From: Desulfomonilia bacterium
GTDB taxonomy: Bacteria; Desulfobacterota; Desulfomonilia; UBA1062
NCBI GenBank assembly: GCA_036567785.1
Contig: DATCTV010000023.1
Span: 1-64,000 of the forward strand
Direction: 5' to 3'
Length of the DNA stretch: 64,000 nt
Part shown: one piece after another, positions 1,566 to 27,039 of the stretch
Position numbering within the stretch: position 1 is the stretch's first letter
How the letters are laid out: every line of letters starts with the position of its first letter
Translations under genes and position numbers: made by a program
Notes under the pieces: model-generated
The model's input: only the letters and a program-made list of their open reading frames with translations
What the model was told of the DNA's origin: nothing
The model's database searches: none

Positions 1566-1652
1566 GTTTTTCTCTCCTGCAAGGTTTGACTTGATTACCT
1601 TTTTTCTGTATCCACTTATATGGGTTTTCAAATATATTTCAAGGAGTTTAAA

Positions 1653-2945
1653 GTGTACTGGGACAAAAAAGCCGAAACCATGCCGAGAGCAGAACTTGAA
1701 GAGCTTCAACTGAAGAGACTGAAAGAAACAGTTAAGGCGGCATCAAATTCACCATTTTATCAGGACAAGGGCCTGTCGGATATAAAAATAAATACACTGG
1801 AAGACATTTCAAGGCTTCCATTTACCGTGAAGCAGGATTTGAGGGATTCCTACCCGTACAGAATGCTTTCCGTGCCTCTTGAGAAAGTGGTGAGACTCCA
1901 TTCTTCATCGGGCACCACGGGAATTCCCACAGTCGTCTATCACAGCAAGACCGACATTGATTTATGGGCGGAGCTTGTTGCTAGGTGTATGTATATGGCA
2001 GGTGTACGCAATAAAGATGTCTTTCTGAACATGATCGGATACGGCCTTTTTACAGGGGGATTGGGTTTCCATTACGGAGCGGAAAAAATAGGCTGCCTTA
2101 CAATTCCTTCGGGGCCGGGCAATACGAAGCGCCAGCTAAAATTCATGAAAGATTACGGTGTAACTGCAATTCATGTCATTCCAAGCTACGCGCTGCACCT
2201 TGCCGATACCCTTGAAAAGAATGGTGTCGATCCGAAAAAGGACTTTCCATATCTGAAATTTGCATTTGCCGGTGCGGAACCATACTCGGAAGAGACAAGA
2301 AAAAAGATCGAGGACTTTTTCGGCATAGATTGCTTCAATTCTTACGGGCTCTCTGAAATGTGCGGTCCCGGAGTCGCTTTCGAATGCCCGTATAAGAGCG
2401 GCATGCATATCTGGGAAGACTCGTTTTATGTCGAGATACTGGATCCTGTTACTCTCGAACCGGTCAAGACCGGTGAAACTGGTGAACTTGTGCTTACGCC
2501 GCTGACGCACGAGGCGATGCCTATTTTAAGATACCGTACAAAAGATCTGACAAGTATTGTTGAAGGTCAATGCGAATGCGGAAGGATACACCGCAGAATC
2601 AGTCGAATAACAGGAAGATCGGATGATATGATCATATTGAAGGGCGTCAATATCTTCCCTGTACAGATAGAAGAAGTGCTTATAGGCATCGAAGGGGTCA
2701 GGCGGAATTATCAGATTATCCTTATGAATAAAGGCCACAATGACCACATGATAGTAAAGGTTGAAGTGGATCAGGCTTTCTTTGAGGGCAACAAGGTGGT
2801 TCTGGCCTCATTAAGAAACAGGATTGTAAGGGAACTGCATGATGAGATACTGCTGACACCCGAAGTCGAACTCTGCGAACCCGACAGTCTGCCTTATAAT
2901 GAAGTTGGCAAGGCGGTCCGTGTGATTGATAACAGGAGTATATAA
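1653..2945 (+). CDS. paaK: Phenylacetate-CoA ligase family protein
   Basis: Adenylate-forming enzyme that would convert an aryl acid plus CoA and ATP to the CoA thioester. The 430-aa length matches PaaK. Visible motifs are the phosphate loop SSGTTG (85-90), YGLSEMCGPG, YRTKDL and the C-terminal hinge GRSDDMIILKG. A GTG start at 1653 is chosen because AAGGAG lies six bases upstream and the peptide then begins MYWDKKAE, as in the family; an in-frame ATG at 1620 has no such site. It stands alone, not next to other phenylacetate genes, so the substrate could be another aromatic acid. Many anaerobic proteobacteria carry several such ligases. Confidence 0.9.
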   Translation: MYWDKKAETMPRAELEELQLKRLKETVKAASNSPFYQDKGLSDIKINTLEDISRLPFTVKQDLRDSYPYRMLSVPLEKVVRLHSSSGTTGIPTVVYHSKTDIDLWAELVARCMYMAGVRNKDVFLNMIGYGLFTGGLGFHYGAEKIGCLTIPSGPGNTKRQLKFMKDYGVTAIHVIPSYALHLADTLEKNGVDPKKDFPYLKFAFAGAEPYSEETRKKIEDFFGIDCFNSYGLSEMCGPGVAFECPYKSGMHIWEDSFYVEILDPVTLEPVKTGETGELVLTPLTHEAMPILRYRTKDLTSIVEGQCECGRIHRRISRITGRSDDMIILKGVNIFPVQIEEVLIGIEGVRRNYQIILMNKGHNDHMIVKVEVDQAFFEGNKVVLASLRNRIVRELHDEILLTPEVELCEPDSLPYNEVGKAVRVIDNRSI

Positions 2946-3111
2946 TAAATAATCTCTTCCGCCGTCCGGCAGACTGAATTTGAATATGGCTTATTGAAGG
3001 GTCCATAAGAGGCCTTTTTATTGTCTCGCCGGAGGCACACCTTAACGTTTTATCACGATTCTCTTCATTTCGACGATATTGTCGCATCAACAAAAAATAT
3101 AAAAATAGGAA

Positions 3112-3140
3112 TTGACAAATAATATTATTACCAGTATGAT
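3112..3140 (+). promoter_or_regulatory. Sigma-70-type promoter for the pilus module
   Basis: TTGACA at 3112-3117 and TATGAT at 3135-3140 are separated by exactly 17 bases, in an AT-rich stretch 93 bases before the prepilin ATG. It is one of the closest matches to the housekeeping consensus in the window. The predicted start near 3147 would give a leader of about 85 bases, ending in a G-rich ribosome binding site. Confidence 0.72.
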
Positions 3141-3232
3141 ATAGAATATTAGAAATAAGTTAAGTTGTCATTTGTAGGCGTTGGTAATATCTGCCATTTG
3201 GATTTTTTTAATTATTTATGGGGGGGGTGCAA

Positions 3233-3919
3233 ATGTCCAAAGGAATGACTCTGATAGAGTTCATTATCGTTTTGCTGCTGGGATCGCTGATATTGCTTTC
3301 GGTTTCAAGCTTATATATTGCCGTGGCATGGGCTTATGGTTCACAGAGATCTGACTGGATATGCATGCAGTCATTAAGAACTGCAATGCATATACTTGAC
3401 AGGGATATTGAGGAATGCGCCTACCTGCTTCCCCGTGATCTGAAAGTTGTATTCAGCGGCGATAAATTGTTTATTGCCGGACTTACTGCAACTAATGATA
3501 ACAAGGGTCTTTCAATAAATTCATCATATGCTCCGCCATATTATTCAACCGTATCATCAGTAAATAAAGATTCAATAGTGCTGGATACATTGGATATTGA
3601 TACAGACGGTAAGCCTGATTACATTGCCGGCCAGGGAATTATAAGCGACAGCGGAGCTTATGAAATCATGAACAATTATTCAAGGGGAAACACCCCGATA
3701 CCTCTTAAAGGAGGAACTCCGAAAGCCGGCGACAGGACAGTACCTGCAGTTTTGTATCAGGTTACGGGAGAGGGTCTTTACAGGAACAATCAGCTTATAT
3801 CGGAAAATATCACAGGACTTTCAGTAGAACACTCAGGCGGTGAAATTAAAATAATTATGAGGGCAAGAAGAAATGAGACAGCAAAAGAGATCAGCTTTAA
3901 TTACAGCCTCGGAGAATGA
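3233..3919 (+). CDS. PilW-like type IV minor prepilin
   Basis: 228-aa protein beginning with a short class III leader: MSKG followed by MTLIEF and about 20 hydrophobic residues. This is the prepilin peptidase site (Gly -1, Glu +5) plus the N-terminal helix of pilins and pseudopilins. The start at 3233 is chosen over an in-frame ATG at 3218 because a seven-G run lies five bases before it. The body has no obvious enzymatic motif and resembles PilW-type minor pilins, which act in the inner membrane to prime pilus assembly and carry the tip. Its 3' end overlaps the next gene by 47 bp, suggesting translational coupling. A type II secretion pseudopilin is the main alternative. Confidence 0.75.
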   Translation: MSKGMTLIEFIIVLLLGSLILLSVSSLYIAVAWAYGSQRSDWICMQSLRTAMHILDRDIEECAYLLPRDLKVVFSGDKLFIAGLTATNDNKGLSINSSYAPPYYSTVSSVNKDSIVLDTLDIDTDGKPDYIAGQGIISDSGAYEIMNNYSRGNTPIPLKGGTPKAGDRTVPAVLYQVTGEGLYRNNQLISENITGLSVEHSGGEIKIIMRARRNETAKEISFNYSLGE

Positions 3920-6017
3920 AGGCTGGGTTCTTGTTTATACCCTTGTCTTCCTGATTCTGATCCTGTCGATATCGGCATCGGCTTATGCGGTTGCAAGGTT
4001 CAGACTGGCAACAGGGGCAGGATTTGAACATATTCTCGAAGGTTCCGGGATTGAAGACAGCGGGTGCACAATAAATCATTACAGACTGCCCGCGCCTGAA
4101 GGATGGGACCACATGGTTTTCAAGACAGATATCATTGAAAAGAAATATGGAAGCGGAAAGAATGAATATTACTGGCAATCTGAAAAGGCAAACAATAGTT
4201 GTCACATGAAAGAAGATATAAAACTTACATGCAGCAGACCCTACATTCTCTTTCTTGTACAGGACTCTGAAAGTCTTATGCAGGCCAGTGGAAGCGACTA
4301 TGATGAGAGCACGGTTTATTTTAAGAACAAGAAAGGGGAAATTTCCATTTCAGACTTCATTATTAAAGATGGAGATTATGTAAACACCGGTGATGGTACA
4401 TATTTCAAGGGTTCATATGGAAACTCACACTTTAAGGCGCCTGCCTCAGATTTGAGCGGATGCTCAGGTTCAATGCCGATTTCGACGCTTTATATGCAGG
4501 TCATGCGGGAAATTGCGGGTTCAGTAAGCATTTCAGAGGCGGCTCTTGCATCGGTTACAAAAGGGATAACCGTACCCTTCGGGGAGGAAAGAGACAAACT
4601 TATCAAGATGCTGAACAAGATCAGTTTCAATGATGACAAGGCGAGACTTGCGAAATCTCTTTACGGGATTGTCGAAAAGTTTCCTGAAGAATGCGCAACA
4701 ACAAGGCATATAGTTTTTTTAACCGACGGTCTGGCCAGGGATGACGGAGATATTCCGCTCTGGCTGAGAGATTATGACGGGGATCTGAATTCCGGTGATA
4801 CACATATTTCAGGAGCGGGTTCTCACTGTCTTGATGATGTTAGCTGTTATTCGGCATCCAAGAATATTTTCGTGCATATACTGGGGCCTCAAACCGATTT
4901 CCTTGAAGCAGTGGTTCTCAAAGGAAAAGGCAAATATATGCCCGGTGTGAATGACCTTATTACGGAAACACCTTTTACCGGTACCATGCCGCTTGAAAGA
5001 AAAGACAAAACGGTGTTTCTTGAAAACAGGTTCGGCCGTTTAAATCCGTCATGGGTTAACAGAAATGGATCAAAATATTACAGGATCAGTTCAACCGGTG
5101 AGTTAATCCAGTCCCAGGCCTTTGATTATCCCGGACCGGCGGAATCCGTATATAACGAGGGAGATAACCTCTATGTCTCAACCTCAGGAAATTCAATAAG
5201 TCTGATAGACCTGGCATCAGGCAGTCTTATATGGTCTGTCAAGGGTCCGGGAGGCCGGATAAGAAGTACCGGTGGACATGTAGTGGCAGGACCTTCTTCC
5301 GATGGCAGCCTGTTCTGCTTTAGAAACACACCGGAGTTGGCCTGGAAATCAAATGCGGATTTGTTCGACGTTTCAGAAAATATGGTATTTCTTGCAAAAA
5401 ACAATAATGTGCAAGCCTTGGAACTTTCTTCAGGCAACAAGTTGTTCAGCGTGAGCCTTGGCGAAAAGATCACAACCATCAATTATGATCCTAATGAATC
5501 ACTGGTTTATGCAGGGACATCACACGGAAAAATATTCATACTGACTCCTGAACTGATTACCAGATACGTAATAGCAGCCGGGGTAACGGATGAAATCCTT
5601 GATGTCCACTCATATACATTCAGAAAATCCCTTTTCCTATGCGGCTGTACGAAGGATACGGTTTTCTGTACGAATATGCAGAAGCCTTTATGGTCACAAA
5701 AAATCGAGAACCCTGAAATTATCCGGATGCTGATAATGGATGGCAGGGTTTATTTAGTCCATTTTTCAGAAGGAAGTCCCTGTGGAGGAATAGATACCGG
5801 ATATTCGTATCTGAGCATATATGAAGCGGGAACCGGAAAATTCATATCAAAAGAAATTATCTGCAGCGGAAGGTCGTTTGGCCCTCTTATAGACACAAAG
5901 AACAGGAAGCTGGTTTTCTCGAGCTATGACATGAAAATATATGAGCACGATTATTCAGGTTTGCATGGTGCTAAAACATGCTTCCTCGGTACAAGATTGC
6001 GCGGAAAGGAAATATAA
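3873..6017 (+). CDS. PilX-anchored VWA/PQQ-propeller protein, PilY1-like pilus tip adhesin candidate
   Basis: 714-aa exported or membrane-anchored protein. Residues about 15-45 (NEGWVLVYT followed by a hydrophobic stretch) look like the start of a PilX-type minor pilin. Residues about 115-370 resemble a von Willebrand A domain: the strand ILFLVQDSESLM sits where the metal site should be, but the DxSxS pattern is degenerate, and a later strand reads HIVFLTDG. From about 400 to 670 come repeated blade-like segments (NSISLIDLASGSLIWSVKG and similar) typical of PQQ-type beta-propellers. PilY1 adhesins combine a VWA region with a C-terminal propeller; here both appear joined to a minor-pilin anchor in one chain. 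It overlaps the PilW-like gene and ends eight bases from the convergent regulator gene. Confidence 0.68.
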   Translation: MRQQKRSALITASENEGWVLVYTLVFLILILSISASAYAVARFRLATGAGFEHILEGSGIEDSGCTINHYRLPAPEGWDHMVFKTDIIEKKYGSGKNEYYWQSEKANNSCHMKEDIKLTCSRPYILFLVQDSESLMQASGSDYDESTVYFKNKKGEISISDFIIKDGDYVNTGDGTYFKGSYGNSHFKAPASDLSGCSGSMPISTLYMQVMREIAGSVSISEAALASVTKGITVPFGEERDKLIKMLNKISFNDDKARLAKSLYGIVEKFPEECATTRHIVFLTDGLARDDGDIPLWLRDYDGDLNSGDTHISGAGSHCLDDVSCYSASKNIFVHILGPQTDFLEAVVLKGKGKYMPGVNDLITETPFTGTMPLERKDKTVFLENRFGRLNPSWVNRNGSKYYRISSTGELIQSQAFDYPGPAESVYNEGDNLYVSTSGNSISLIDLASGSLIWSVKGPGGRIRSTGGHVVAGPSSDGSLFCFRNTPELAWKSNADLFDVSENMVFLAKNNNVQALELSSGNKLFSVSLGEKITTINYDPNESLVYAGTSHGKIFILTPELITRYVIAAGVTDEILDVHSYTFRKSLFLCGCTKDTVFCTNMQKPLWSQKIENPEIIRMLIMDGRVYLVHFSEGSPCGGIDTGYSYLSIYEAGTGKFISKEIICSGRSFGPLIDTKNRKLVFSSYDMKIYEHDYSGLHGAKTCFLGTRLRGKEI

Positions 6018-6025
6018 ACGAATTC

Positions 6026-7381
6026 TCAGACTGTTTTTTCGTTTATATTAATGTTGTACTTCTTGATCTTGTAATGCATTACGCGCCTTGATATGCCCAG
6101 TGTTTTTGCCGCTTCGTTCTGAACCCATCTGGACTTTTTCAAGGCGTCAATGACCATATCCTTTTCCGTCTCCTCCAGCTTGTTAAGGCTATCGTCAAAC
6201 ACTTCTTCAGGTTCGCAGATTCCTGAAATGAGAAGGTCGTCTCTGGTGATGATGTCGTTGCTGCACAGAACAACTGCCGATTGTACCGTGTTTTTGAGCT
6301 CCCTGACGTTTCCAGGCCAGTGATGTTTTTTCATGATCTCAAGTGCGTCCTTTGATATGCCGAGGATATGTTTGCCGGTTTTCTGGGAAAACTCATTGAC
6401 AAATATCTGGACCAGACCCGGTATATCCTCAGTCCTTTCTCTTAGAGGGGGAATGTCGATATTAATGACTTTGAGTCTGTAGTAAAGATCTTCCCTGAAA
6501 GAGCCGCTTTTTACAAGCGACATCAGGTCTGCATTTGTGGCGGCGATAACCCTGATATCCGAATGTTTCTGAGTGACATCGCCTACACGGCGGAACTCTC
6601 CATACTCGATAACCCTTAGCAGCCTGTTCTGGAGTTCGGGAGATATGTTACCTATCTCGTCAAGGAACAGCGTCCCTTTGTCCGCCTCTTCGATAATTCC
6701 TGTCTTGTCTTTTATTGCGCCGGTGAAAGCACCCTTGACATAACCGAACATCTCGGATTCGATAAGCCCTGAAGGTGTCGCCCCGCAGTCCATGATTACG
6801 AAGTTTCTGGCTGCACGTTTGCTCTCGCTGTGGATAAGCCTTGCAATAAGCTCTTTGCCTGTCCCTGATTCACCTGTGATAAGCACCGTGGCATCGGTTG
6901 AACTTACCTGTTTTGCGAGGCGTACGACATGGTTCATTGAATGGCTGACCGCATATATCGGACTGTCGGACGAGAGCTCCACTTTTTTTTCCAGCGCACG
7001 AACCCTCTGTTTAAGTTCCTGTTTATCAAGAGCTCTGTTCAGTTTGGCAATAAGTTCTGCAGGGTTGAAAGGCTTGAGAATATAATCGTATGCACCCTGT
7101 TTCATTGCTTCAACCGCGCTGGAAATTGTGCCGTGGGCTGTAAGTATGATCACCTCGATGTCAGGATCCAGTTCCTTGGCCTCGTTAAGGACGGTAATAC
7201 CGTCTTTCTCCGGCATCTTCATATCAGTCAGCAGCACGCAGGCATTGCCGTTTTTAATCGCTTCGAGTGCGCTGTCCGGTTTGGTAAAACCCTTCACATT
7301 ATAACCCTTGGTCTCGAGACGGGTAATCAGTACCTCAACAATATTTGGTTCATCATCCAGTATGATGATTTCAGGGTTCAT
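6026..7381 (-). CDS. NtrC-family sigma-54-dependent response regulator (GlrR/QseF-like position)
   Basis: 451-aa activator. A receiver domain (1-120) has acidic residues D9/D10, the phosphoacceptor D53, T81 and K103. A central AAA+ domain has Walker A GESGTGKE (170-177), the sigma-54 contact loop GAFTGA and Walker B LFLDEIG. A Fis-type helix-turn-helix lies at the C-terminus (AAKTLGISRRVMHYK). It would bind enhancer sites and open sigma-54 promoters once phosphorylated. Its start overlaps the stop of the lipoprotein gene by four bases, and the kinase lies one gene further upstream, so it is the third gene of a translationally coupled operon. Confidence 0.95.
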   Translation of the reverse strand: MNPEIIILDDEPNIVEVLITRLETKGYNVKGFTKPDSALEAIKNGNACVLLTDMKMPEKDGITVLNEAKELDPDIEVIILTAHGTISSAVEAMKQGAYDYILKPFNPAELIAKLNRALDKQELKQRVRALEKKVELSSDSPIYAVSHSMNHVVRLAKQVSSTDATVLITGESGTGKELIARLIHSESKRAARNFVIMDCGATPSGLIESEMFGYVKGAFTGAIKDKTGIIEEADKGTLFLDEIGNISPELQNRLLRVIEYGEFRRVGDVTQKHSDIRVIAATNADLMSLVKSGSFREDLYYRLKVINIDIPPLRERTEDIPGLVQIFVNEFSQKTGKHILGISKDALEIMKKHHWPGNVRELKNTVQSAVVLCSNDIITRDDLLISGICEPEEVFDDSLNKLEETEKDMVIDALKKSRWVQNEAAKTLGISRRVMHYKIKKYNININEKTV

Positions 7382-7974
7382 TTTCTAAGACCTCTTTTCC
7401 TCTCAGACTTCTCAATAATCTCTTCAAGTTTATTGAGTTTGAACTTAAGTTCTTTCTTCTCCTCTGCAAGAATCGCTATAAGTTCTTCCTTCTGAGCCAA
7501 TATTCTTTCAGTTTCCTTCAATCTCTTCTCATCTTCCTTATGGGTCTTCTCCAGTTCCGCCCTGTCATTGAGGCATTTCGTATTCTTGTTCTGGAGAAAG
7601 TCGATATCCTTGTTCCTTTCGCCGATGATCTCGACAAGTGAAATGATATAGCCGGCATCGACCTTCAGATCCCTTGAAACGTCGGGGTCATTCCTGATGG
7701 CCATTAAAGCAGCCTTTGTTTCAGCTGTTGAATATTCTTCTGTTATAATCGAGTTCATAATCAAAATGATCTTTTTTCTTGCCTCGATATCAGGATGGTC
7801 AATGGGAATATCCAGTGATGCTGTCGATTTAAGCGCTTTACCTGCAGCAATACTGTCCTCGGCTGTTACTATCTCCTGCGGCAGCAGCGGAGCGCAACCG
7901 GCAAGTATCAGTTCAAGCACCGACAGGAATACTGAAATAAAACAAGCTGCCCTTTCCAACCCTGCTCTGCGCAT
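7378..7974 (-). CDS. QseG-like lipoprotein between kinase and regulator
   Basis: 198-aa protein with a signal peptide ending in the lipobox LAGC at about residues 23-26, then a helical domain and, from about 140 on, a long charged coiled coil ending in KRGLRK. The ATG at 7974 is chosen because GGAGGAA lies just upstream and the signal peptide then starts cleanly; the open frame extends 56 codons further but only antisense-free within the kinase gene. It overlaps the end of the kinase gene by 62 bp and the regulator start by 4 bp. In enterobacteria the lipoprotein QseG sits in exactly this position and activates its kinase from the membrane. Function here is inferred from gene order, since sequence similarity could not be tested. 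Confidence 0.72.
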   Translation of the reverse strand: MRRAGLERAACFISVFLSVLELILAGCAPLLPQEIVTAEDSIAAGKALKSTASLDIPIDHPDIEARKKIILIMNSIITEEYSTAETKAALMAIRNDPDVSRDLKVDAGYIISLVEIIGERNKDIDFLQNKNTKCLNDRAELEKTHKEDEKRLKETERILAQKEELIAILAEEKKELKFKLNKLEEIIEKSERKRGLRK

Positions 7975-9361
7975 GTATCTTTCCTCCGTGCGTCTCCACA
8001 ATATGTTTGGCGATTGCAAGTCCCAGGCCGATTCCGCTGTGACCTCTGGTAGTCCTGGATTGATAAAACTTTTCAAAAATGAGAGGTATGTCTTCCTCTG
8101 GAATACCCTTTCCATGATCCTGGACTTCAATGATAAAATCATTTCCCTTGCGGCTGAGTCTTATTTCAACTCTTCCACCGTCTTCCGAATATTTGATTGC
8201 ATTGTGGGTCAGATTTGTCAACACCTGCAGGATCTTATTTTTATCCACATTTGCCATACATGCTGAATCGGGATTCCTGAATATCAGGTCTATGCCTTTA
8301 TTCTGAGAATAAGGCATAATTTCTGTAACGAATTCGGATATTATAATCCTTAAATCATTCGGCTGAAGGTCAAGTCTCAATAATCCGGCTTCAAGTCTGG
8401 ACATGTCCAGCAGCTCATTTATTATCTGCAGCAGCCTGTTTATTCCCTGATCCATTATCGAGATAAGTCTTTTCTGCTTTCCGTCAAGTTCACCGCCAAT
8501 GCCGTCCATAAGAAGGCTGGCAGCTTCCTTCATCGATGTGAGAGGTGTTTTCAGCTCATGAGAAACAATTGAGATAAATTCTGATTTCATGTCATCGAGC
8601 TCTTTCAGCCGCGTAGCCATCTTGTTGAACGATTCCGCAAGTTTGCCAAGCTCGTCTTTTGAATCAATAGGAATCCTGTATGTAAAATCACCCTCTGAGA
8701 TGTGTCTTGTCCCTGTGTTAATAAGACCTATTTCTTTGGATATGCCGATATAGATTATCAAAGGGATGAACAGTCCGAGAGCAAGGGCTGTTATAAATGA
8801 CCACCATGTTATGGTCACCACCTTTTCTCCAAGTGTTTTAAGTTTGAAAATCTTTTCGTCAATCGACTTTACAGCATTCTGTCTGACAGTCTTTGCGGTC
8901 TCGACAAGTTCATCGATGATTTTATCGTTTTTTTCAAACATCTTATCTATCAGCCTGGGGTCTGATGGTATGTTCTGAGCTTCAAGATAGTAAGCCTTGA
9001 TGAAGTCATTCCATCTGGTTTCGGAAATCTTTATCAATTCAGCCTCTTTGCTGTCGTAAGCGACTTTGCTGCCTTTCAAATATGAGAAAGCATTTGAAAT
9101 CTCTGTGGCATTCTCCTTGACAGTACCCATATACGAAGGGTCCTGAAGCAGAATATACTTGCGGGATGCCTCGTCAAGGTTGATAAGGCACTGATTCAAG
9201 GTTTCGCCGGTGTCCTTTTTTTTGTAGTCAAGACTGTACACCTCGGCCGTCACGCCTCCGAGGCTTGAAGAAACATAAAGCAGTAATATACATAGGCCCA
9301 ATATTACTACCAGATAGACCATAAAGGTCATTGCAAGTTTTTCACGCAATCCAATTTTCAT
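7913..9361 (-). CDS. Membrane sensor histidine kinase (GlrK/QseE-like architecture)
   Basis: 482-aa inner-membrane kinase. TM helix 1 spans about 11-31, an all-helical periplasmic sensor about 32-180, TM helix 2 about 184-207, and a HAMP linker about 208-260. A HisKA domain has the phosphoaccepting H268 in SIVSHELKTP, and the ATPase domain has the N box NAIKYS, G1 DHGKGIP, F box FEKFYQ and G2 GIGLGLAI. The start at 9361 places the first TM near the N-terminus; the frame opens at 9400, and neither site has a strong ribosome binding site, so the start is uncertain. It is the first gene of the kinase-lipoprotein-regulator operon. Confidence 0.93.
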   Translation of the reverse strand: MKIGLREKLAMTFMVYLVVILGLCILLLYVSSSLGGVTAEVYSLDYKKKDTGETLNQCLINLDEASRKYILLQDPSYMGTVKENATEISNAFSYLKGSKVAYDSKEAELIKISETRWNDFIKAYYLEAQNIPSDPRLIDKMFEKNDKIIDELVETAKTVRQNAVKSIDEKIFKLKTLGEKVVTITWWSFITALALGLFIPLIIYIGISKEIGLINTGTRHISEGDFTYRIPIDSKDELGKLAESFNKMATRLKELDDMKSEFISIVSHELKTPLTSMKEAASLLMDGIGGELDGKQKRLISIMDQGINRLLQIINELLDMSRLEAGLLRLDLQPNDLRIIISEFVTEIMPYSQNKGIDLIFRNPDSACMANVDKNKILQVLTNLTHNAIKYSEDGGRVEIRLSRKGNDFIIEVQDHGKGIPEEDIPLIFEKFYQSRTTRGHSGIGLGLAIAKHIVETHGGKIHAQSRVGKGSLFYFSIPVGA

Positions 9362-15871: not shown

Positions 15872-17170
15872 ATGATTCCCCGATACTCCACAAAGGTGAT
15901 GAATGAAATCTGGTCGGATCAGAACAGATACCGGAAGTGGCTGGATGTGGAAATTGCAGCCTGCGAGGCCTGGGCGAAGCTGGGTAAAATCCCGCAGGCA
16001 AGTCTTGAGAATATCCGGAAGAATTCCAGGTTCGATGTTGCGCGGATCGAAGAAATCGAGAACATCACAAAACACGATGTAATCGCATTCGTAAGCTGTG
16101 TGGCCGAATATATAGGTGAGGACGCGCGTTACGTGCACATGGGACTCACGAGCTCAGACGTGCTGGATACCGCCTATGCGCTTCAGTGCAAGGAGGCGGG
16201 AGCTGTAATAATCGAAGACATGAGGATGCTGATGGAGGCCCTTAAGAAAAGGGCCTATGAATATAAAGACCTGCCCGCAATGGGACGTTCCCACGGTATT
16301 CACGCAGAACCCGTTTCTTTCGGTTCAAAGTTCGCTCTGTGGTATGCGGAAATGGGGCGAAACCTTAAACGCATGAACGAGGCCATCGATGTGATCGCAT
16401 GCGGCAAGATATCGGGCGCGGTCGGCACGTTCGCAAATGTCCCGCCCGAGGTCGAAGAATATGTATGCGCAAAGCTCGGGCTTACGGCAGAGCCGCTCAG
16501 CACGCAGATCGTCCAGCGCGACAGGCATGCCCAGTTCTTCACCACGATTGCGCTCATCGGCTGCACAATCGAAAAGATTGCCATAGAGATAAGGCACCTG
16601 CAGCGCACCGAGGTGCTCGAGGCAATGGAGCCTTTCGGCAAGGGGCAGAAGGGTTCGTCTGCAATGCCTCACAAAAAGAATCCTATACTCTCCGAAAATC
16701 TGACAGGTATGGCAAGGCTTCTGCGCGGCTATGCACTCTCGGCCATGGAAAACGTGGCGCTCTGGCATGAGCGCGATATAAGCCATTCCAGCGTCGAGCG
16801 CGTTATCGGCCCGGATGCCACGACCCTGCTTGACTTTGCACTCAAGAGACTGAAAGGTTTGATAGAAGGCCTTGTCGTGTTCCCGGAAAATGTGAAGAAG
16901 AACCTCGAACTCACAAAGGGGTTATGGCATTCGCAGAATGTCCTGCTTGCGCTTGTCGATGCGGGCATGCTGCGAGACGACGCCTATGCCGTCGTGCAGA
17001 GAAATGCACTTCCCGTATGGGAAGGCAAGGGTGATTTCAAGGAAGCGCTCCTGAACGACCCCGAGGTCACGGCAAAACTCAGCAGGGAAAAAATCGACGA
17101 CCTGTTCGATCTGTCGCATCATATGAAGTACATAGACACGATATTCAAACGTGTCTTTGACATGGCGTGA
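15872..17170 (+). CDS. purB: Adenylosuccinate lyase
   Basis: 432-aa fumarase-superfamily enzyme that cleaves SAICAR to AICAR and adenylosuccinate to AMP in purine synthesis. The superfamily signature GSSAMPHKKNP is intact, and the MGRSHGIHAEP and TSSDVLDT blocks are present. It follows metG by four bases. The 3' end is unusual: the last codons GAC-ATG-GCG-TGA coincide base for base with the first bases of an inverted-repeat element, so the terminal Asp-Met-Ala and the stop codon are supplied by the repeat. Enzyme function should not be affected because only the tail beyond RVF changes. Confidence 0.97.
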   Translation: MIPRYSTKVMNEIWSDQNRYRKWLDVEIAACEAWAKLGKIPQASLENIRKNSRFDVARIEEIENITKHDVIAFVSCVAEYIGEDARYVHMGLTSSDVLDTAYALQCKEAGAVIIEDMRMLMEALKKRAYEYKDLPAMGRSHGIHAEPVSFGSKFALWYAEMGRNLKRMNEAIDVIACGKISGAVGTFANVPPEVEEYVCAKLGLTAEPLSTQIVQRDRHAQFFTTIALIGCTIEKIAIEIRHLQRTEVLEAMEPFGKGQKGSSAMPHKKNPILSENLTGMARLLRGYALSAMENVALWHERDISHSSVERVIGPDATTLLDFALKRLKGLIEGLVVFPENVKKNLELTKGLWHSQNVLLALVDAGMLRDDAYAVVQRNALPVWEGKGDFKEALLNDPEVTAKLSREKIDDLFDLSHHMKYIDTIFKRVFDMA

Positions 17171-17415
17171 TAACTTCGCATCTCTGCGTCACTTCCTTGT
17201 CTCAAAGTTGCGAAATTGGGATCATGAGCATCCTGTTACGCTCCTCAAGCCGAGCGTAGCAAAGGCGAAGAGACATACGCCAAAAGTATGCCTCACTTTT
17301 CGACATCGTCGCTCCTTGACCTGCCTTGATTCGGGCTATTGTCGGCCCTCACCCTTCGGGCGCATCTTCGATGCGTCAATTTTCGTGAAGCGAAAATTTG
17401 TTCTGACGCCATGTC
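17159..17415 (+). repeat. Dispersed inverted-repeat element, copy 1 (expanded)
   Basis: The element is bounded by perfect 10-bp inverted ends, GACATGGCGT at 17159-17168 and ACGCCATGTC at 17406-17415. It shares the blocks TGATAACTTCGCATCTCTG, CTTCCTTGTCT, GTATGCCTCAC and CTCCTTGACCTGC with copies 2 and 3. At 257 bp it is twice their length. The extra DNA lies in both arms and contains small hairpins, such as AATTTTCG/CGAAAATT around 17380-17400 and CGCATC/GATGCG near 17360. It begins inside purB and fills most of the gap to the next gene. An ORF crossing it is a by-product. Confidence 0.85.
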
Positions 17416-17433: not shown

Positions 17434-17472
17434 TCTGCCTGTGTCGTTTCCTTGTCTCGTCACAGCGGCATG
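17434..17472 (+). repeat. Truncated fragment of the same repeat family
   Basis: Bases around 17440-17470 (CTGTGTCG-TTTCCTTGTCTCGTCA-CAGCGGC) match the left arm of copy 2 at about 19314-19345 nearly base for base but lack both terminal repeats. It appears to be a remnant of a further copy next to copy 1. Confidence 0.6.
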
Positions 17473-19284: not shown

Positions 19285-19289
19285 AGACC

Positions 19290-19413
19290 GACATGGCGTG
19301 ATAACTTCGCATCTCTGTGTCACTTCCTTGTCTCGTCACTGCGGCGTACAGCAATGTACGCCTCATTCCTCGACTGCGTCGCTTCTTGACCTGCATCGTT
19401 CTGACGCCATGTC
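19290..19413 (+). repeat. Dispersed inverted-repeat element, copy 2
   Basis: 124 bp with the same perfect ends as copy 1, GACATGGCGT (19290-19299) and ACGCCATGTC (19404-19413). It has an inner hairpin with stem GGCGTACA / TGTACGCC (19343-19350, 19355-19362) closed by a GCAA tetraloop. It begins five bases after the phosphoesterase stop codon. Size and structure recall ERIC-type elements, though the sequence differs from enterobacterial ERIC as far as I can recall it. Confidence 0.88.
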
Positions 19414-19518
19414 ATTTCATTTATCATTATTATTGTAACCTTACTGCTATAGCTTTTTCTTGCATGAAGAGGTGCCTTACACCTATACTTTTCTCAATAA
19501 AAAGCGACTGACACTTTA

Positions 19519-20739
19519 CTAATTTATGTTGAAATCTTTTGCACAAAAATTGTGTATATTGTTTTTTACATCAATGTTTTTTTTTCGATTTATTAGCCAT
19601 CGCTCTTTCCAATGATTAACTAGCTCATCTAATGTGTAGTTTAAATAATGAGGTTTTTTTTGGTTACCGTTCAGGAACTCTTTAAAGTTATCTGCCAGAG
19701 GTATAGCGTATATTTGTCTTTTAAAAGAGTGATTAAGTAAAAGATCGGAATTAAATCCAAGAATGTCAGCAGCAGTACGAATTACACGCATTCTCCATAT
19801 TGGGCCATCGCCGAATTTATTAGTAACATCGATATTGTTATTTCGAAGCAACTCGCGCATTGCTTCGAAAGTTTCGTCTGTTAAATGCAAGGTTCCGAAA
19901 CCTTTAGTTTGTCCAATTGGTATATATAACAAGTTATTATCTATTTTGATGCGATTATATTGAGAGCTTTTCCCGTACAGACTAGTTGTAAAAAGACAAG
20001 CAAGATCATTTGCTTTACGTTTGGAGATATTAGTAATCGTATCTTTATATTTTCGCTTATAAATGTTTCTGACCTCGTTCGATGCAATTATGTAAGAAAT
20101 GAGCTTACCACCCAAAAGATGATTATAAGGTGGCAAGGCCCCTAATACATAGGCATCCATTGTATAAACCAAGTTTTTTGTGCGAGTTTCCTTGTTCCAA
20201 CCAATCCAGTTATCACGGTCCGGAATATGAACAATTGAACTCCCAAGAGCAGCAATTCCTATTAAAGGTTTATTTGGTAATGCATTATCACGGATTAAAA
20301 GTTTAATTCTTCTTCCTACATAGTCGCTGTAAGGCGAAGACCAGTAATAACGAAAGATACGAAATAGGTCGAATTGTTTTTGTTCTTCACATACCTCAAT
20401 CATTGGCTCAATCTTAGATTCCCACACCAAATGACCATCTGCTAAATTATGCCTTGCTAATAAAATATTTTCAGTTATCCACTTTTTATTTTTTTGTATG
20501 GATTCTTGTCTTTTAATCTGCATCGAATCCTTAACGATTTGCTTGTTATAAAAAGATGGAGGGGTAAAGGAAATCCGATTAGTATTTGTTTTCATTTCCC
20601 ATCCCAATCTTAAAAGATCACGAACTATTAGAAGTTTAACCCTATCTTCAGAAGATTCTGTAAATATTGGAACATCAGGTTTATGTTCTGAAATAAGCCT
20701 GTGTAATTGACTATTATGTTTTAACTTTAAGTCTAGCAT
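19519..20739 (-). CDS. DUF4338 protein, DruA-like (Druantia-type defence)
   Basis: 406-aa protein whose core (about 120-300) matches the DUF4338 family: FRIFRYYWSSPYSDYVGRR, then IGIAALGSS, RDNWIGWN (175-182), TMDAYVLGALPPYNHLLGGK (193-212), ASNEVRNIYKRKY, TTSLYGKSSQYNR and GQTKGFGTLHL. DruA of the type I Druantia anti-phage system belongs to this family; its biochemical role is unknown to me. It is the last gene of an operon, starting three bases after the herA stop. No druE-type giant helicase or druBCD gene is adjacent. Base composition is clearly more AT-rich than the housekeeping genes around it, as in the two partner genes, suggesting transfer. Family call firm; function inferred. Confidence 0.82.
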   Translation of the reverse strand: MLDLKLKHNSQLHRLISEHKPDVPIFTESSEDRVKLLIVRDLLRLGWEMKTNTNRISFTPPSFYNKQIVKDSMQIKRQESIQKNKKWITENILLARHNLADGHLVWESKIEPMIEVCEEQKQFDLFRIFRYYWSSPYSDYVGRRIKLLIRDNALPNKPLIGIAALGSSIVHIPDRDNWIGWNKETRTKNLVYTMDAYVLGALPPYNHLLGGKLISYIIASNEVRNIYKRKYKDTITNISKRKANDLACLFTTSLYGKSSQYNRIKIDNNLLYIPIGQTKGFGTLHLTDETFEAMRELLRNNNIDVTNKFGDGPIWRMRVIRTAADILGFNSDLLLNHSFKRQIYAIPLADNFKEFLNGNQKKPHYLNYTLDELVNHWKERWLINRKKNIDVKNNIHNFCAKDFNIN

Positions 20740-20742
20740 ATC

Positions 20743-22413
20743 CTACTTAACGAACTTGGATTCTTTGTAAACTATGTTCTCAATAAGCTTTTCGAATTCG
20801 GTGACTCTTACAGGCAAAGCAAAAGCTTGATCGGAAGATACCATGTAAAGGTTTCCAGGAATTGTTTCTCGTTGGATAAAATTTGCAATTACTCCATCGT
20901 AGTTTATATTCGACTTAATCAAAGCTCGAATATCATCTGAATTTCCCATATGAAAAGTAAAGAAGTTCTCTGCTTGTGTTCTTATTTCTTCGGAGATCGC
21001 TGATGGACGCTGGGTAATGGCAACCACACCTAATCCAAACTTTCTACCTTCTTTTGCTACTCTGACAAACGGATTTGCATTAGATTTGACAAATTCCTCA
21101 GATAATACATTCTGTGCTTCTTCAACAAAAATAACTGTATTGATAACCTTTTCAGGGTTGTCAGATGTGAAATTTTCCTTGTTATTATCAAACAGTTTGC
21201 GAACAAATATTGTAGAAATTATGCTCGCATCCATATTGTCTTTAAGTGATAAATCAATAATAATGGTTTTCCCCTGTTTTAAATATTCAAAGACTTTTTC
21301 TACAAGGTCTGAAGAATTTGAATGTATACCTTTGCCTTCATCAATGAGGTGTCTAATTCGTTTTCTAATGGCCATGATGGTTTTCCTGGCACTAACATCC
21401 TCTTTAGGCATACCTTTACTGTCAAGTTTTACTTCACCAAAAAAGTCGGCAAAATCTGTATGAAGTCTTCCTGGGTTTGAAACATACTGGTCGATATTTT
21501 TTATAAAATCGCCAACACCTTCTTCATCCAAATATAACAAAAATGATTTCATAACTTCGGAAAAACCCGCTCCAAAATTCAGGATATCCCCAACTGTGAG
21601 GTTGTTATGCATGTTCAATAGTACTTTGCCACCAAATATAAAACGTTTATTGTTTTTGTACTCATTCGGAAGTTCCTTATCTGTATAAACAACAACATTG
21701 TTTCTTATGGCCGGGTCATCAATATCCCCAAGCCCATATGTTGACAGACCCCTCAGGAAATATTCACCATTTAAATCAAAGATAAGCTTTCCGTAATGGG
21801 TATCTTCTGTCATATTGCGTAGGAGTACTTTAACCAAATTTGTTTTACCGAAACCAGATTGTGCAAATATCATAGTTCTTTTGTTACGTAATTTATCTAT
21901 CTTGAACAGTATATGCCCTTTATCTTTGAATACATTTTCCCCTATGCAAAGGTGCCCTATTGGCGCACCATTTTCATTTGCCTTGTTCAGGATTGACTCT
22001 ATTTCACGTTTGTTCAAATGCCTTGCAATATATGAAACTGTAGGTAATTTACGAACAGCTGTTGTAAAGTTTATTGATGTTCCAGTATCAGTGTAAGTTC
22101 CAAGAATTCTAACTTTATAAGTATAACTGAACATCTTTTGTTTATCACGTTCAGAAAGTTCCCTTTCAGCAATTCGGGCATAATGAACGGCAATTAGCGT
22201 TTTGTCTTGAGATTTAAAAATGGGATCTTCATCATAAATTTCAGCCTCAACGCGAGCGAGGAATTTAGTGCTTCCTTCGTCTTTGGGTGTCAAGACAATA
22301 AAATCACCTGTTTGGGGACTAGCTTTGGCATCTTCATAAGAAGAGTAAATAAGTAAAGCATCTTCCGTGGTCTTCTGGCCATACAGAACACCAAAATCAG
22401 CTTGCTTACTCAA
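20743..22413 (-). CDS. herA: HerA-type hexameric DNA translocase/ATPase
   Basis: 556-aa FtsK/HerA-superfamily ATPase. An N-terminal HAS-barrel-like beta domain spans about 1-130. The ATPase core follows, with Walker A AQSGFGKTN (184-192), Walker B VIFVEEAQN (427-435), a sensor segment VVAITQRPS, and the RTQAENFF region typical of HerA. In archaea HerA forms a ring that drives the NurA nuclease during DNA end resection; in bacteria HerA-nuclease pairs are found in defence loci. The gene lies 14 bp after nurA and 3 bp before the DUF4338 gene. AT-rich composition matches its partners. Confidence 0.92.
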   Translation of the reverse strand: MSKQADFGVLYGQKTTEDALLIYSSYEDAKASPQTGDFIVLTPKDEGSTKFLARVEAEIYDEDPIFKSQDKTLIAVHYARIAERELSERDKQKMFSYTYKVRILGTYTDTGTSINFTTAVRKLPTVSYIARHLNKREIESILNKANENGAPIGHLCIGENVFKDKGHILFKIDKLRNKRTMIFAQSGFGKTNLVKVLLRNMTEDTHYGKLIFDLNGEYFLRGLSTYGLGDIDDPAIRNNVVVYTDKELPNEYKNNKRFIFGGKVLLNMHNNLTVGDILNFGAGFSEVMKSFLLYLDEEGVGDFIKNIDQYVSNPGRLHTDFADFFGEVKLDSKGMPKEDVSARKTIMAIRKRIRHLIDEGKGIHSNSSDLVEKVFEYLKQGKTIIIDLSLKDNMDASIISTIFVRKLFDNNKENFTSDNPEKVINTVIFVEEAQNVLSEEFVKSNANPFVRVAKEGRKFGLGVVAITQRPSAISEEIRTQAENFFTFHMGNSDDIRALIKSNINYDGVIANFIQRETIPGNLYMVSSDQAFALPVRVTEFEKLIENIVYKESKFVK

Positions 22414-22427
22414 GTTTTGCCTCCTAT

Positions 22428-23672
22428 TTAGAATCTGTCATGTGTGTCTAAGAATAAGTTTTCAATATCAATATGATCCATTCTTTGATCTTTATACAGT
22501 GAATATTTCAATCTATTAATAATTTCTTCTTTGAAGTTTTTTTTAAGAGAGATGAAGTTGTGGACTTCAGCTAAGGGGTAAGGATATCCTAAAATGTAAT
22601 GTTCTTGAGTCAGTCGTGTCAGCTCTTTGAATATCAATGCAAGCTCTGTTTTGTCGCGATCCAATACAGAACCTTCAATTCCAGGAATTGCGTCAAAGAT
22701 ATTTACATCAATTATGACCCAGTCAAAATTTTGAAGTTTTTCAACATAATCTAAACGAGCAGCTACAAATAGACCGAAACCACGTCCGCCATGTATTCCT
22801 TTTTTAACAAACATCTCACCTTGGTATGAAGCTTTTAAGACTGGTGTTGGCACTTCAAACCAGCAACACAGTTTTTTTCTCTTTGGATCTTTCTCAGTAA
22901 ATGGATATTTATATTTAAGCTGGTCTTGAAGGTAGTCATCTATCTGTTTGAATGTATAAGATAGCTCCATCTTTATAGGAGATTGTTTTGTTATAGAAAT
23001 GGTCTTAATTCCTTTTTCATGAAGATATTTTCCCAACCGAACCAAATATTCTTGTTTAATTTGAAGCGGACGAAGTGTTCCATCTCGGAGTATAAAATCA
23101 CCTGGTTTTGTATGGTTGAGTTCTGCGACTTCAAGGATAAGAGAGATTTCAAGAATTTCCTGACAAAATGAAAGGAGTGTCGATAAGTTAACGCAAATCT
23201 TTTCTTTGTCATATGCAAAAATATTTTCAGGGGTATCTCCTGGTTTTTCTGCCCAAAATTCGAGTAATCGTTTAACCGGCTTTATGTTTAGCAATTCATC
23301 ATATATTGCACAAAGATGATCTTGGCTGGTTACAAGTATATTTTCAGGATAATATGCTTGTCCCAGGATTATAGGATCATCAAGCGAATTCATACGAACT
23401 TGCTTACCATATTGGTAGCAGATATATCCAGCAGTATACATAACAATAGCCAAACCATTATAAAACTGTTCACTATTGAAACTTCCATCAATTGCATAAA
23501 AGCTTCTATCTGTATTGTCGATCTCGTTGAATGGGGTAATTTCAAATATTTGTGGCGTTTCAATATTATCTTCAACGCCTATGGGATTGATGTTGTAATT
23601 TTTATTGCTTCTACTGTTTATATGTTTTGCAACCGCTTCTATTGCATTATCTGGAATTTCTTTTCGTGACAT
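22428..23672 (-). CDS. nurA: NurA-type nuclease partner of HerA
   Basis: 414-aa NurA-domain protein. The first metal-binding motif YAIDGSF has its Asp at 62; a second, ILRDGTLRPL, lies near 195; the C-terminal block GYPYPLAEVHNFISL is typical of the family. NurA is an Mn-dependent 5'-3' exonuclease and single-strand endonuclease that works as a dimer on the HerA ring. It is the first gene of the three-gene operon, with AAAAGG upstream of the ATG at 23672. The catalytic residues look intact, so an active nuclease is expected. Confidence 0.88.
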   Translation of the reverse strand: MSRKEIPDNAIEAVAKHINSRSNKNYNINPIGVEDNIETPQIFEITPFNEIDNTDRSFYAIDGSFNSEQFYNGLAIVMYTAGYICYQYGKQVRMNSLDDPIILGQAYYPENILVTSQDHLCAIYDELLNIKPVKRLLEFWAEKPGDTPENIFAYDKEKICVNLSTLLSFCQEILEISLILEVAELNHTKPGDFILRDGTLRPLQIKQEYLVRLGKYLHEKGIKTISITKQSPIKMELSYTFKQIDDYLQDQLKYKYPFTEKDPKRKKLCCWFEVPTPVLKASYQGEMFVKKGIHGGRGFGLFVAARLDYVEKLQNFDWVIIDVNIFDAIPGIEGSVLDRDKTELALIFKELTRLTQEHYILGYPYPLAEVHNFISLKKNFKEEIINRLKYSLYKDQRMDHIDIENLFLDTHDRF

Positions 23673-25696: not shown

Positions 25697-26185
25697 CTAC
25701 GCCGATTTTATCTGGATTTTTTTCTGCTGCTCTACAGGCTTTGCGACCTTGGGCAGCGTGATGTTGAGGACGCCTTTTTTGAATGTCGCGTCGATCTTGT
25801 CGTGCTCGACTTCGGAAGGTATCTGGATCGTCCTGCTGAAGCTGCCGTAGCTCCTTTCGGAATAGTAGGTTTCCTTTCCTTTTTCTTCCTTTTCCTGGGT
25901 CTTCTCTCCTTTAATGGTGAGGATGTCCTTGGAAAGGTTGACCTCGATGTCTTTTTCCTCGAGTCCGGGTAGTTCGGCCGTAACCTTGATCTCTTTCTCG
26001 TCTTCAGTCATGTCGATTTTCGGGTTGAACGCTCCGAATTTTTCGTCAAACGGTGTGACCTCGAAGCCGCTGAAGAAATCGTCAAAGAGGTTGTTGAGCG
26101 CCCTCTGGAAGGTTACCGCCGGGTTCTCTCCGGTTTTTGCCAAATTGCCTGATCTTCCGAATCTAAATGGTGACAGATATCTCAT
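25697..26185 (-). CDS. Hsp20/alpha-crystallin small heat-shock protein (1)
   Basis: 162-aa chaperone that holds unfolding proteins in a refoldable state as part of large oligomers. The alpha-crystallin domain covers about 55-148, with LPGLEEKDIEVNL near its start and the GVLNITLP motif near its end. The C-terminal IQI provides the I-x-I oligomer contact. The longer N-terminal arm (FDDFFSGFEV) is typical of the standard bacterial Hsp20 class. An AAGGAGG site precedes the ATG. It is the last of three tandem hsp20 genes on the minus strand, 31 bp beyond the second. Confidence 0.95.
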   Translation of the reverse strand: MRYLSPFRFGRSGNLAKTGENPAVTFQRALNNLFDDFFSGFEVTPFDEKFGAFNPKIDMTEDEKEIKVTAELPGLEEKDIEVNLSKDILTIKGEKTQEKEEKGKETYYSERSYGSFSRTIQIPSEVEHDKIDATFKKGVLNITLPKVAKPVEQQKKIQIKSA

Positions 26186-26216
26186 GATTTTTACCTCCTT
26201 TTCTTAAAGATATTTC

Positions 26217-26612
26217 TTAGCCTGCCTGTATGGCGATTTTTCTTGTCTTGACAGGTTCGGCCTTCGGGAGAACGACCTTAAGGACGCCATCCTTCATGCT
26301 GGCCTCGATCTTTTCCCTGTCGATCTCGTCGCTAAGGGTGAACTGCCTGTAATAATCGCCGATTCCGTATTCGATATATGTCGCCTTCCTCTGGCCGTAG
26401 ATGCTTTCATCGACGCCTGCCTCAATCGTCAGAATGTCCTTCTCCAATGTTATATTTACCCTGGATTCGTCAGTGCCGGGCATATCGGCCAGAAGGTAGA
26501 GGCTATCGTTCGTTTCATAGATATCCACCCTGGGCATGTATGTACGCGAATCTTTGGTCCTTTCCGCACCTGCCGTTTTCGTTTCGGTTTTTGCAGTTAT
26601 TTCTTCAGCCAT
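26217..26612 (-). CDS. Hsp20/alpha-crystallin small heat-shock protein (2)
   Basis: 131-aa small heat-shock protein. The alpha-crystallin domain spans about 30-120 (LADMPGTDESRVNITL to GVLKVVLP) and the C-terminal anchor is IAI. The N-terminal arm is short and charged. The start at 26612 (MAEE) is chosen since GGAGGT lies eight bases upstream; the in-frame ATG at 26618 is only two bases from that site. It begins 16 bp after the third gene's stop. The sequence differs strongly from its neighbours, so the trio is not a recent duplication and may form mixed oligomers. Confidence 0.94.
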   Translation of the reverse strand: MAEEITAKTETKTAGAERTKDSRTYMPRVDIYETNDSLYLLADMPGTDESRVNITLEKDILTIEAGVDESIYGQRKATYIEYGIGDYYRQFTLSDEIDREKIEASMKDGVLKVVLPKAEPVKTRKIAIQAG

Positions 26613-26628
26613 ACTCATTCACCTCCGT

Positions 26629-27039
26629 TTATTCGGTTGTCCTTACATTTATTTTTCTGGGTTTGTCCGATTCCGCCCTGGGCAGCGTCAGCTTGAGTAT
26701 TCCCTTGTCATACAGTGCTTCGATTTTACTGCTGTCAACATTGTATGGCAGCTTTACGGTTCTGTTGAAGCTTCCGTATGCGCGTTCGTTTCTGTGCCAT
26801 TTCTCTCCTTCCTTCAGGTCAACGGGTTTTTTCTCCGCCTTAAGAGTAAGCATGTCCCCCGCGACGGTAAGGTCGATCTGGCTTGCTTCAATCCCGGGAA
26901 CTTCAGAAGTTACGACTACATCGTCTCCCGTCACATAAACATTGACAGGAGGGTAGGCCTGTCTTCCTCTTGAGAAAATCCTTCCCATATCCTGATCAAA
27001 ATCCTGAAATTCTCTAAATGGATTTAGTATTGTAAACAT
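26629..27039 (-). CDS. Hsp20/alpha-crystallin small heat-shock protein (3)
   Basis: 136-aa small heat-shock protein and first gene of the hsp20 operon. The N-terminal arm reads NPFREFQDFDQDMGRIF, the alpha-crystallin domain runs from about 30 to 128 with SEVPGIEASQIDLTV and GILKLTLP, and the C-terminus has INV in the I-x-I position. GGAGGTG precedes the ATG. A sigma-32-like promoter lies 34-62 bases upstream, so heat induction of all three genes is likely. Confidence 0.94.
   Translation of the reverse strand: MFTILNPFREFQDFDQDMGRIFSRGRQAYPPVNVYVTGDDVVVTSEVPGIEASQIDLTVAGDMLTLKAEKKPVDLKEGEKWHRNERAYGSFNRTVKLPYNVDSSKIEALYDKGILKLTLPRAESDKPRKINVRTTE

Follow-up and report, generated by a model that had tools for sequence, protein, structure and literature searches.

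A nurA-herA-druA operon in a Desulfomonilia bacterium

What does a DruA (DUF4338) protein do when the genes beside it encode a NurA-type nuclease and a HerA-type translocase? This question is raised by a locus in a 64,000-nucleotide stretch of DNA from a Desulfomonilia bacterium (contig DATCTV010000023.1, positions 1 to 64,000; hereafter the window), in which nurA, herA and druA form one tight minus-strand operon with intergenic gaps of 14 and 3 bp. We found no published explanation of DruA function in the literature. The operon narrows the DruA problem to three genes, and in sister operons the place of druA is taken by a DNA methylase gene. The evidence tips slightly toward the view that these genes make up a compact, horizontally moving system resembling restriction-modification, in which DruA would mark self DNA and HerA-NurA would destroy unmarked invading DNA.

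The original prediction, made from the sequence alone, had described such an operon with intact catalytic motifs and a composition more AT-rich than that of its neighbors. This description held: the open reading frames (ORFs) lie where it had placed them, all three products match Pfam families, Asp62 of NurA and Lys190 of HerA are invariant among 19 and 20 relatives, respectively (Table 1), and GC content is 0.32-0.35 over the operon (20-24 kb) versus roughly 0.45-0.54 on either side. The start codon of herA is TTG, preceded by a GGAGG ribosome-binding site.

DruA is repeatedly linked to NurA-HerA

One genome per species, 84,980 species in all, was scanned with a DruA profile, which yielded 431 relatives. 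The best 80 of these 431 were read with flanks of up to 10 kb and, supplemented with plasmid and phylum loci, gave a typed set of 85 full-length DruA loci. NurA-HerA adjoins DruA at 42 of them, genes for DruE-type helicases or their usual companions are present at 37, and the neighbors of the remaining 6 were uninformative. The automatic typing missed locus L014, where a 1043-aa gene lies between DruA and NurA, and locus L059 has no HerA ORF of at least 120 aa; the count of 42 of 85 is right to about two loci. The NurA-HerA-linked DruA group spans 13 named phyla and contains many metagenome bins; two carriers are cultured, Mucilaginibacter roseus LMG 28454 (L074), which has an operon of the window type, and Thermovorax subterraneus DSM 21563 (L116). 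The possibility, raised by the original prediction, that the three families adjoin in this genome only has thus clearly fallen away.

Within the phylum of the window, the NurA family PF09376 was matched in 4 of 297 genomes. DruA adjoins in all four, which indicates that the association is more than chance. These loci are the window operon, a DruA-1043 aa protein-NurA-HerA array (G125), a NurA-HerA-DruA array (G128) and a DruA-NurA-HerA array behind type III restriction genes (G228). The window type of NurA-HerA is present in 1 of 395 phylum genomes. Across loci, the median spacing of consecutive operon genes ranges from -10 to +7 bp. The triad is also borne by the IMG/VR contigs L170, L172 and L173, which are three of nine DruA-bearing viral contigs. 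No relative was found when viral contigs were scanned with single NurA and HerA sequences or with a HerA profile, or when plasmids were searched with NurA by tblastn.

Gene order differs between lineages: the window type is NurA-HerA-DruA, NurA-HerA of lineage BD may precede or follow DruA, and lineage C is mostly DruA-NurA-HerA. In a tree of DruA proteins, the members of the window clade (29 rows) have NurA-HerA wherever neighbors are visible, with NurA-HerA lineages A and BD interleaved within the clade, and more NurA-HerA pairings are scattered among the DruE-linked DruAs. This distribution indicates repeated exchange of DruA partners, which in turn argues for a functional bond between DruA and NurA-HerA. 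A long, supported branch sets the window clade off from the DruE-linked DruAs. Operon GC is lower than flanking GC in 30 of 31 loci, as expected for what looks like a mobile, horizontally moving system.

Some loci hold additional genes. The 1043-aa protein of L014 (positions 4257-7388), encoded between druA and nurA-herA, combines a sacsin domain with a NO VEIN domain at the C terminus, and an ATPase-like protein is encoded 3′ of nurA-herA in Rhizobium (L182). On a haloarchaeal plasmid (L012:5473-13527), two unknown proteins stand between DruA and a subsequent FtsK-annotated translocase, possibly another motor partner for DruA.

A DNA methylase occupies the place of DruA in sister operons

The third position of these operons was analyzed with a profile of lineage-BD NurA, which is independent of DruA sequence, over the 395 phylum genomes. 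Three loci were detected and none of them contains DruA. Instead, an N6/N4 DNA methylase gene directly adjoins nurA-herA on the same strand at all three (PF01555, E values of 2.8e-14, 1.1e-13 and 7.4e-12). The place of DruA in NurA-HerA operons is swappable with a DNA modifier. Two of the methylases are 81% identical and the third shares 46-47% identity with them, so that the three loci count as a single association sampled independently two or three times. At L181 (positions 1336-8302), a NurA-HerA-methylase set adjoins a SIR2-HerA pair together with a helicase, apparently of SNF2 type when judged by eye, which makes this a possible defense island.

DruA has a GNAT-like fold and is indirectly linked to Mom

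The AlphaFold2 (AF2) model of the window DruA is confident, with a predicted local distance difference test score (pLDDT) of 92 and a predicted template modeling score (pTM) of 0.89. When it was compared with the PDB by Foldseek, the matches listed were almost all GNAT acyltransferases, led by the tRNA(Met) cytidine acetyltransferase TmcA and by NAT10/Kre33. Matches to solved GNATs were weak (best E value 0.017, probability 0.87) but consistent, and DUF4338 has been assigned to GNAT in a published analysis (PMC10853773). About 25 columns are invariant across 74 DruA proteins.

Short DUF4338 proteins of about 300 aa matched by profile both DruA (probability 97.9, E value 3e-13) and the Mom family of phage Mu (probability 95.5, E value 1.5e-8), and one of them also matched a Mom-like PHROG (E value 9e-4). 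Direct comparison of Mom with DruA gave no significant similarity (E value 0.14), and kinship of DruA with Mom is therefore transitive, through the short proteins. Judged by these profile links, the DruA motif KSSQYNR...IGQTKGFGT is the apparent counterpart of the Mom motif G-x-x-Y-x-A-x-N...G. The conserved His48-Tyr49 and Glu98...Arg101 of Mom are not evidently kept in DruA, and DruA chemistry may therefore differ from that of Mom.

The short DUF4338/DruA proteins adjoin IS66 transposases (PF03050) at L133:4872-7384 and L139:4993-7228, and at L128, L129 and L141 a homologous protein is encoded nearby. Members of the family were seen in 47 of 297 phylum genomes, many of them in multiple or broken copies. 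The family may be an accessory gene of IS66 and may give a hint at the origin of DruA. In Pelagibacter phage Mosig (L153:4554-5852), a DUF4338 gene is clustered with genes for three 2OG-Fe(II)/phytanoyl-type dioxygenases and a peptide deformylase, an arrangement that looks like a DNA hypermodification cluster.

NurA and HerA resemble the TdpAB restriction complex

Among solved structures, the best relative of the window-type HerA profile is TdpA (8wet_A, E value 2.4e-28), and that of the window-type NurA profile is TdpB (E value 4.2e-4), which was also the only match of the lineage-BD NurA profile (E value 1.2e-7). Foldseek analysis of the window NurA model (pLDDT 80) likewise placed TdpB first (8wfd_G, E value 1.8e-10), followed by Thermotoga NurA TM1739, endonuclease V and Argonautes. 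TdpAB, the closest relative, had been missed in the original prediction. TdpABC is a DNA phosphorothioation-restriction system of extreme thermophiles (An et al. 2025, Nat Chem Biol 21:1160, cited in PMC13251355). In this system TdpC is reported to sulfurate DNA through ATP, and TdpAB to be the half that degrades DNA without phosphorothioate. The likeness extends to the presence of three genes, for a motor, a nuclease and a third protein. Differences are that identity between NurA and TdpB is only 12%, and that DruA, unlike what is reported of the sulfurating TdpC, has a GNAT fold and no PP-loop motif. By analogy based on TdpA and TdpB, the window system may work like a TdpAB-type restriction complex with a marking partner.

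A model in which DruA marks self DNA

Homology suggests that the window proteins probably form a HerA hexamer bound to a NurA dimer (PMC12977600). The hexamer would encircle duplex DNA and pump it into the NurA dimer, which would degrade it as in other HerA-NurA complexes, both strands being attacked as they are by that of Thermococcus (PMC12977600). DruA, as a member of the GNAT/Mom superfamily, would chemically modify host DNA, most likely by base acylation, and this mark would block loading, translocation or cleavage by HerA-NurA. Only unmarked invading DNA, presumably of phages or plasmids, would then be destroyed. Marking of self DNA is favored over sensing because a methylase replaces DruA in sister operons, because of the GNAT/Mom link and because of the resemblance to TdpAB. 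The specificity or effector role assigned to DruA in the original prediction has accordingly become the less likely one.

A broader proposal is more tentative and, in our estimate, falls somewhat short of an even chance. According to it, DruA/DUF4338 proteins would be Mom-like DNA acyltransferases that install an undescribed self-mark, both in minimal HerA-NurA restriction systems and in Druantia type I, and NurA-HerA would be a general read-out module for different markers (methylase, DruA, TdpC). The operon itself would also account for what bacterial NurA-HerA pairs do apart from repair, in keeping with the recently reported degradation of both DNA strands by the archaeal complex (PMC12977600). 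Should TdpC turn out to belong to DUF4338, what is new here would come down to a TdpABC family of wide distribution.

Several observations weigh against self-marking by DruA. Both DruA and a neighboring methylase are missing from NurA-HerA pairs on plasmids of Rhizobium, Natribaculum and Euzebya. The triads L014 and L016 also have a methylase nearby, and in the window genome a further N6/N4 methylase is encoded at a distance of about 48 kb. The weak E values of the fold matches, the lack of significant direct similarity to Mom and the poor conservation of the Mom residues count in the same direction, and to our knowledge neither a cofactor nor a modified base is known for DruA. Finally, the recurrence near known defense genes for which the original prediction had suggested a check did not clearly emerge: PADLOC matches were similar for proteins near the operons (113) and far from them (90), so that enrichment of defense genes relative to distal ORFs is not evident; individual neighbors include restriction-modification, SIR2-HerA and TOTE genes.

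The main alternative, a refinement of the original prediction that we consider rather unlikely, is that DruA is a sensor or recruiter that recognizes a feature of invading DNA (its sequence, a replication structure or a missing modification), loads HerA-NurA and makes no mark. In the manner of an adaptor, DruA pairs interchangeably with DruE-type helicases (37 rows) and with the unrelated NurA-HerA motor (42 rows), and has switched between them repeatedly. The absence of evident Mom catalytic residues would suit such a role, and we know of no DruA-dependent modification in Druantia. Against a sensor speak the methylase in the DruA position of sister operons, and the GNAT fold of DruA with its link to a DNA modifier. 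Moreover, some 25 invariant columns over 74 proteins suggest an enzyme and not a fast-evolving sensor.

It is improbable that DruA serves as an effector that acylates a protein or an RNA of the phage or the host, beside DNA degradation by HerA-NurA. Substrates of GNATs are diverse, the top fold matches of DruA include tRNA and rRNA cytidine acetyltransferases, and self molecules have been suggested as the targets of GNAT domains fused to DndF (PMC10853773); the Mom link and the replacement by a DNA methylase, however, point to a DNA substrate. Still slightly less probable is a horizontally spread operon for DNA repair by end resection with DruA as an accessory, which the function of archaeal and Deinococcus NurA-HerA and a Pontibacillus plasmid pair adjoining metallophosphoesterase and SMC-type ATPase genes (Mre11-Rad50-like) would suggest, but against which stand the patchy distribution (window type in 1 of 395 phylum genomes), the operon GC, which is low at 30 of the 31 loci, the repeated pairing with a Druantia gene, the presence on viral contigs and the lack of adjoining Mre11-Rad50 genes in the window.

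Relation to other known systems

The window operon shares DruA with Druantia type I (DruABCDE; Table 1). It contains no other dru gene, and its motor is HerA-NurA. No DruE (YprA-type) helicase is encoded adjacent to the operon, and the best match in the whole genome has an E value of 1.4e-4 over 95 of 1855 residues. Because DruE is absent from the genome, canonical Druantia was rejected, as the original prediction had argued.

In the anti-phage systems HerA-DUF4297 and Sir2-HerA, too, an effector enzyme is associated with a hexamer of HerA. In the window, however, the effector is NurA (RNase H-like) and not DUF4297 or SIR2, DruA is an extra gene, and HerA, at 80 bits, falls far short of the 800 bits that NCBI sets as its threshold for anti-phage HerA. 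Archaeal and Deinococcus NurA-HerA, which have a role in end resection, belong to the same two families and probably have the feed-through mechanism in common with the window type, but the latter is linked to DruA and not to Mre11-Rad50, and is patchy, low in GC and apparently mobile. Antiviral activity has also been proposed for Thermococcus HerA-NurA, which degrades both strands of double-stranded DNA (PMC12977600). Phage Mu Mom and Mom-like modifiers share the GNAT-type fold and are tied to DruA through the short IS66-associated DUF4338 proteins, with the differences from DruA given above. BREX-related capture systems also have a HerA/FtsK motor and a GNAT for which marking of host DNA has been suggested; they differ in being based on PglZ/BrxC, and NurA and DUF4338 are not mentioned for them (PMC12839542). 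Literature searches on NurA, HerA, DruA/DUF4338, Druantia and Tdp revealed no description of the triad, and PADLOC-DB 2.0.0 contains no model matching the window NurA.

Features and surroundings of the operon

Table 1. Genes and conserved motifs of the nurA-herA-druA operon (window coordinates)
Feature	Position	Strand	Evidence
nurA, 414-aa NurA-type nuclease, RNase H-like fold	22428..23672	-	PF09376 E 8.5e-10; AF2 pLDDT 80; best Foldseek match TdpB 8wfd_G
NurA Asp62 codon, motif I AIDGS	23487..23489	-	invariant, 19 relatives
NurA Asp197 codon, motif II RDGTLR	23082..23084	-	invariant, 19 relatives
herA, 556-aa HerA/FtsK-type hexameric translocase, TTG start	20743..22413	-	DUF87 PF01935 E 1.3e-15; best solved relative TdpA 8wet_A
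HerA Walker A GFGKT (Lys190)	21841..21855	-	invariant, 20 relatives
HerA Walker B Glu431-Glu432	21118..21123	-	invariant, 20 relatives
druA, 406-aa DUF4338/DruA, GNAT-like fold, proposed self-DNA marking enzyme	19519..20739	-	PF14236 E 2e-64; PADLOC DruA1 E 7.6e-90; AF2 pLDDT 92
DruA core motif MDAYVLGALPPYNHLLGGKL, residues 194-213	20101..20160	-	D195, G200, P204, Y205, K212 invariant, 74 DruA proteins
DruA motif KSSQYNR...IGQTKGFGT, residues 257-283	19891..19971	-	S258, Y261, G280, G282 invariant, 74 DruA proteins

The operon is flanked by genes for a metallophosphoesterase-domain protein and an amine-oxidase-type oxidoreductase, neither of which is an obvious defense gene. Searches for direct repeats in the flanks and for tRNA were negative, and promoter and terminator sites did not exceed chance. 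Comparison with empty sites was uninformative: the upstream neighbor has no close counterpart in the family and the downstream oxidoreductase belongs to a multi-copy family. An interspersed repeat of about 125 bp with inverted ends adjoins the operon (window positions 19286-19416, 17159-17203 and 17439-17469) and is matched at 21 places in the genome, with identities of 73-100%. Further away, positions 25697-27039 hold three tandem minus-strand ORFs that by eye resemble Hsp20 small heat-shock proteins.

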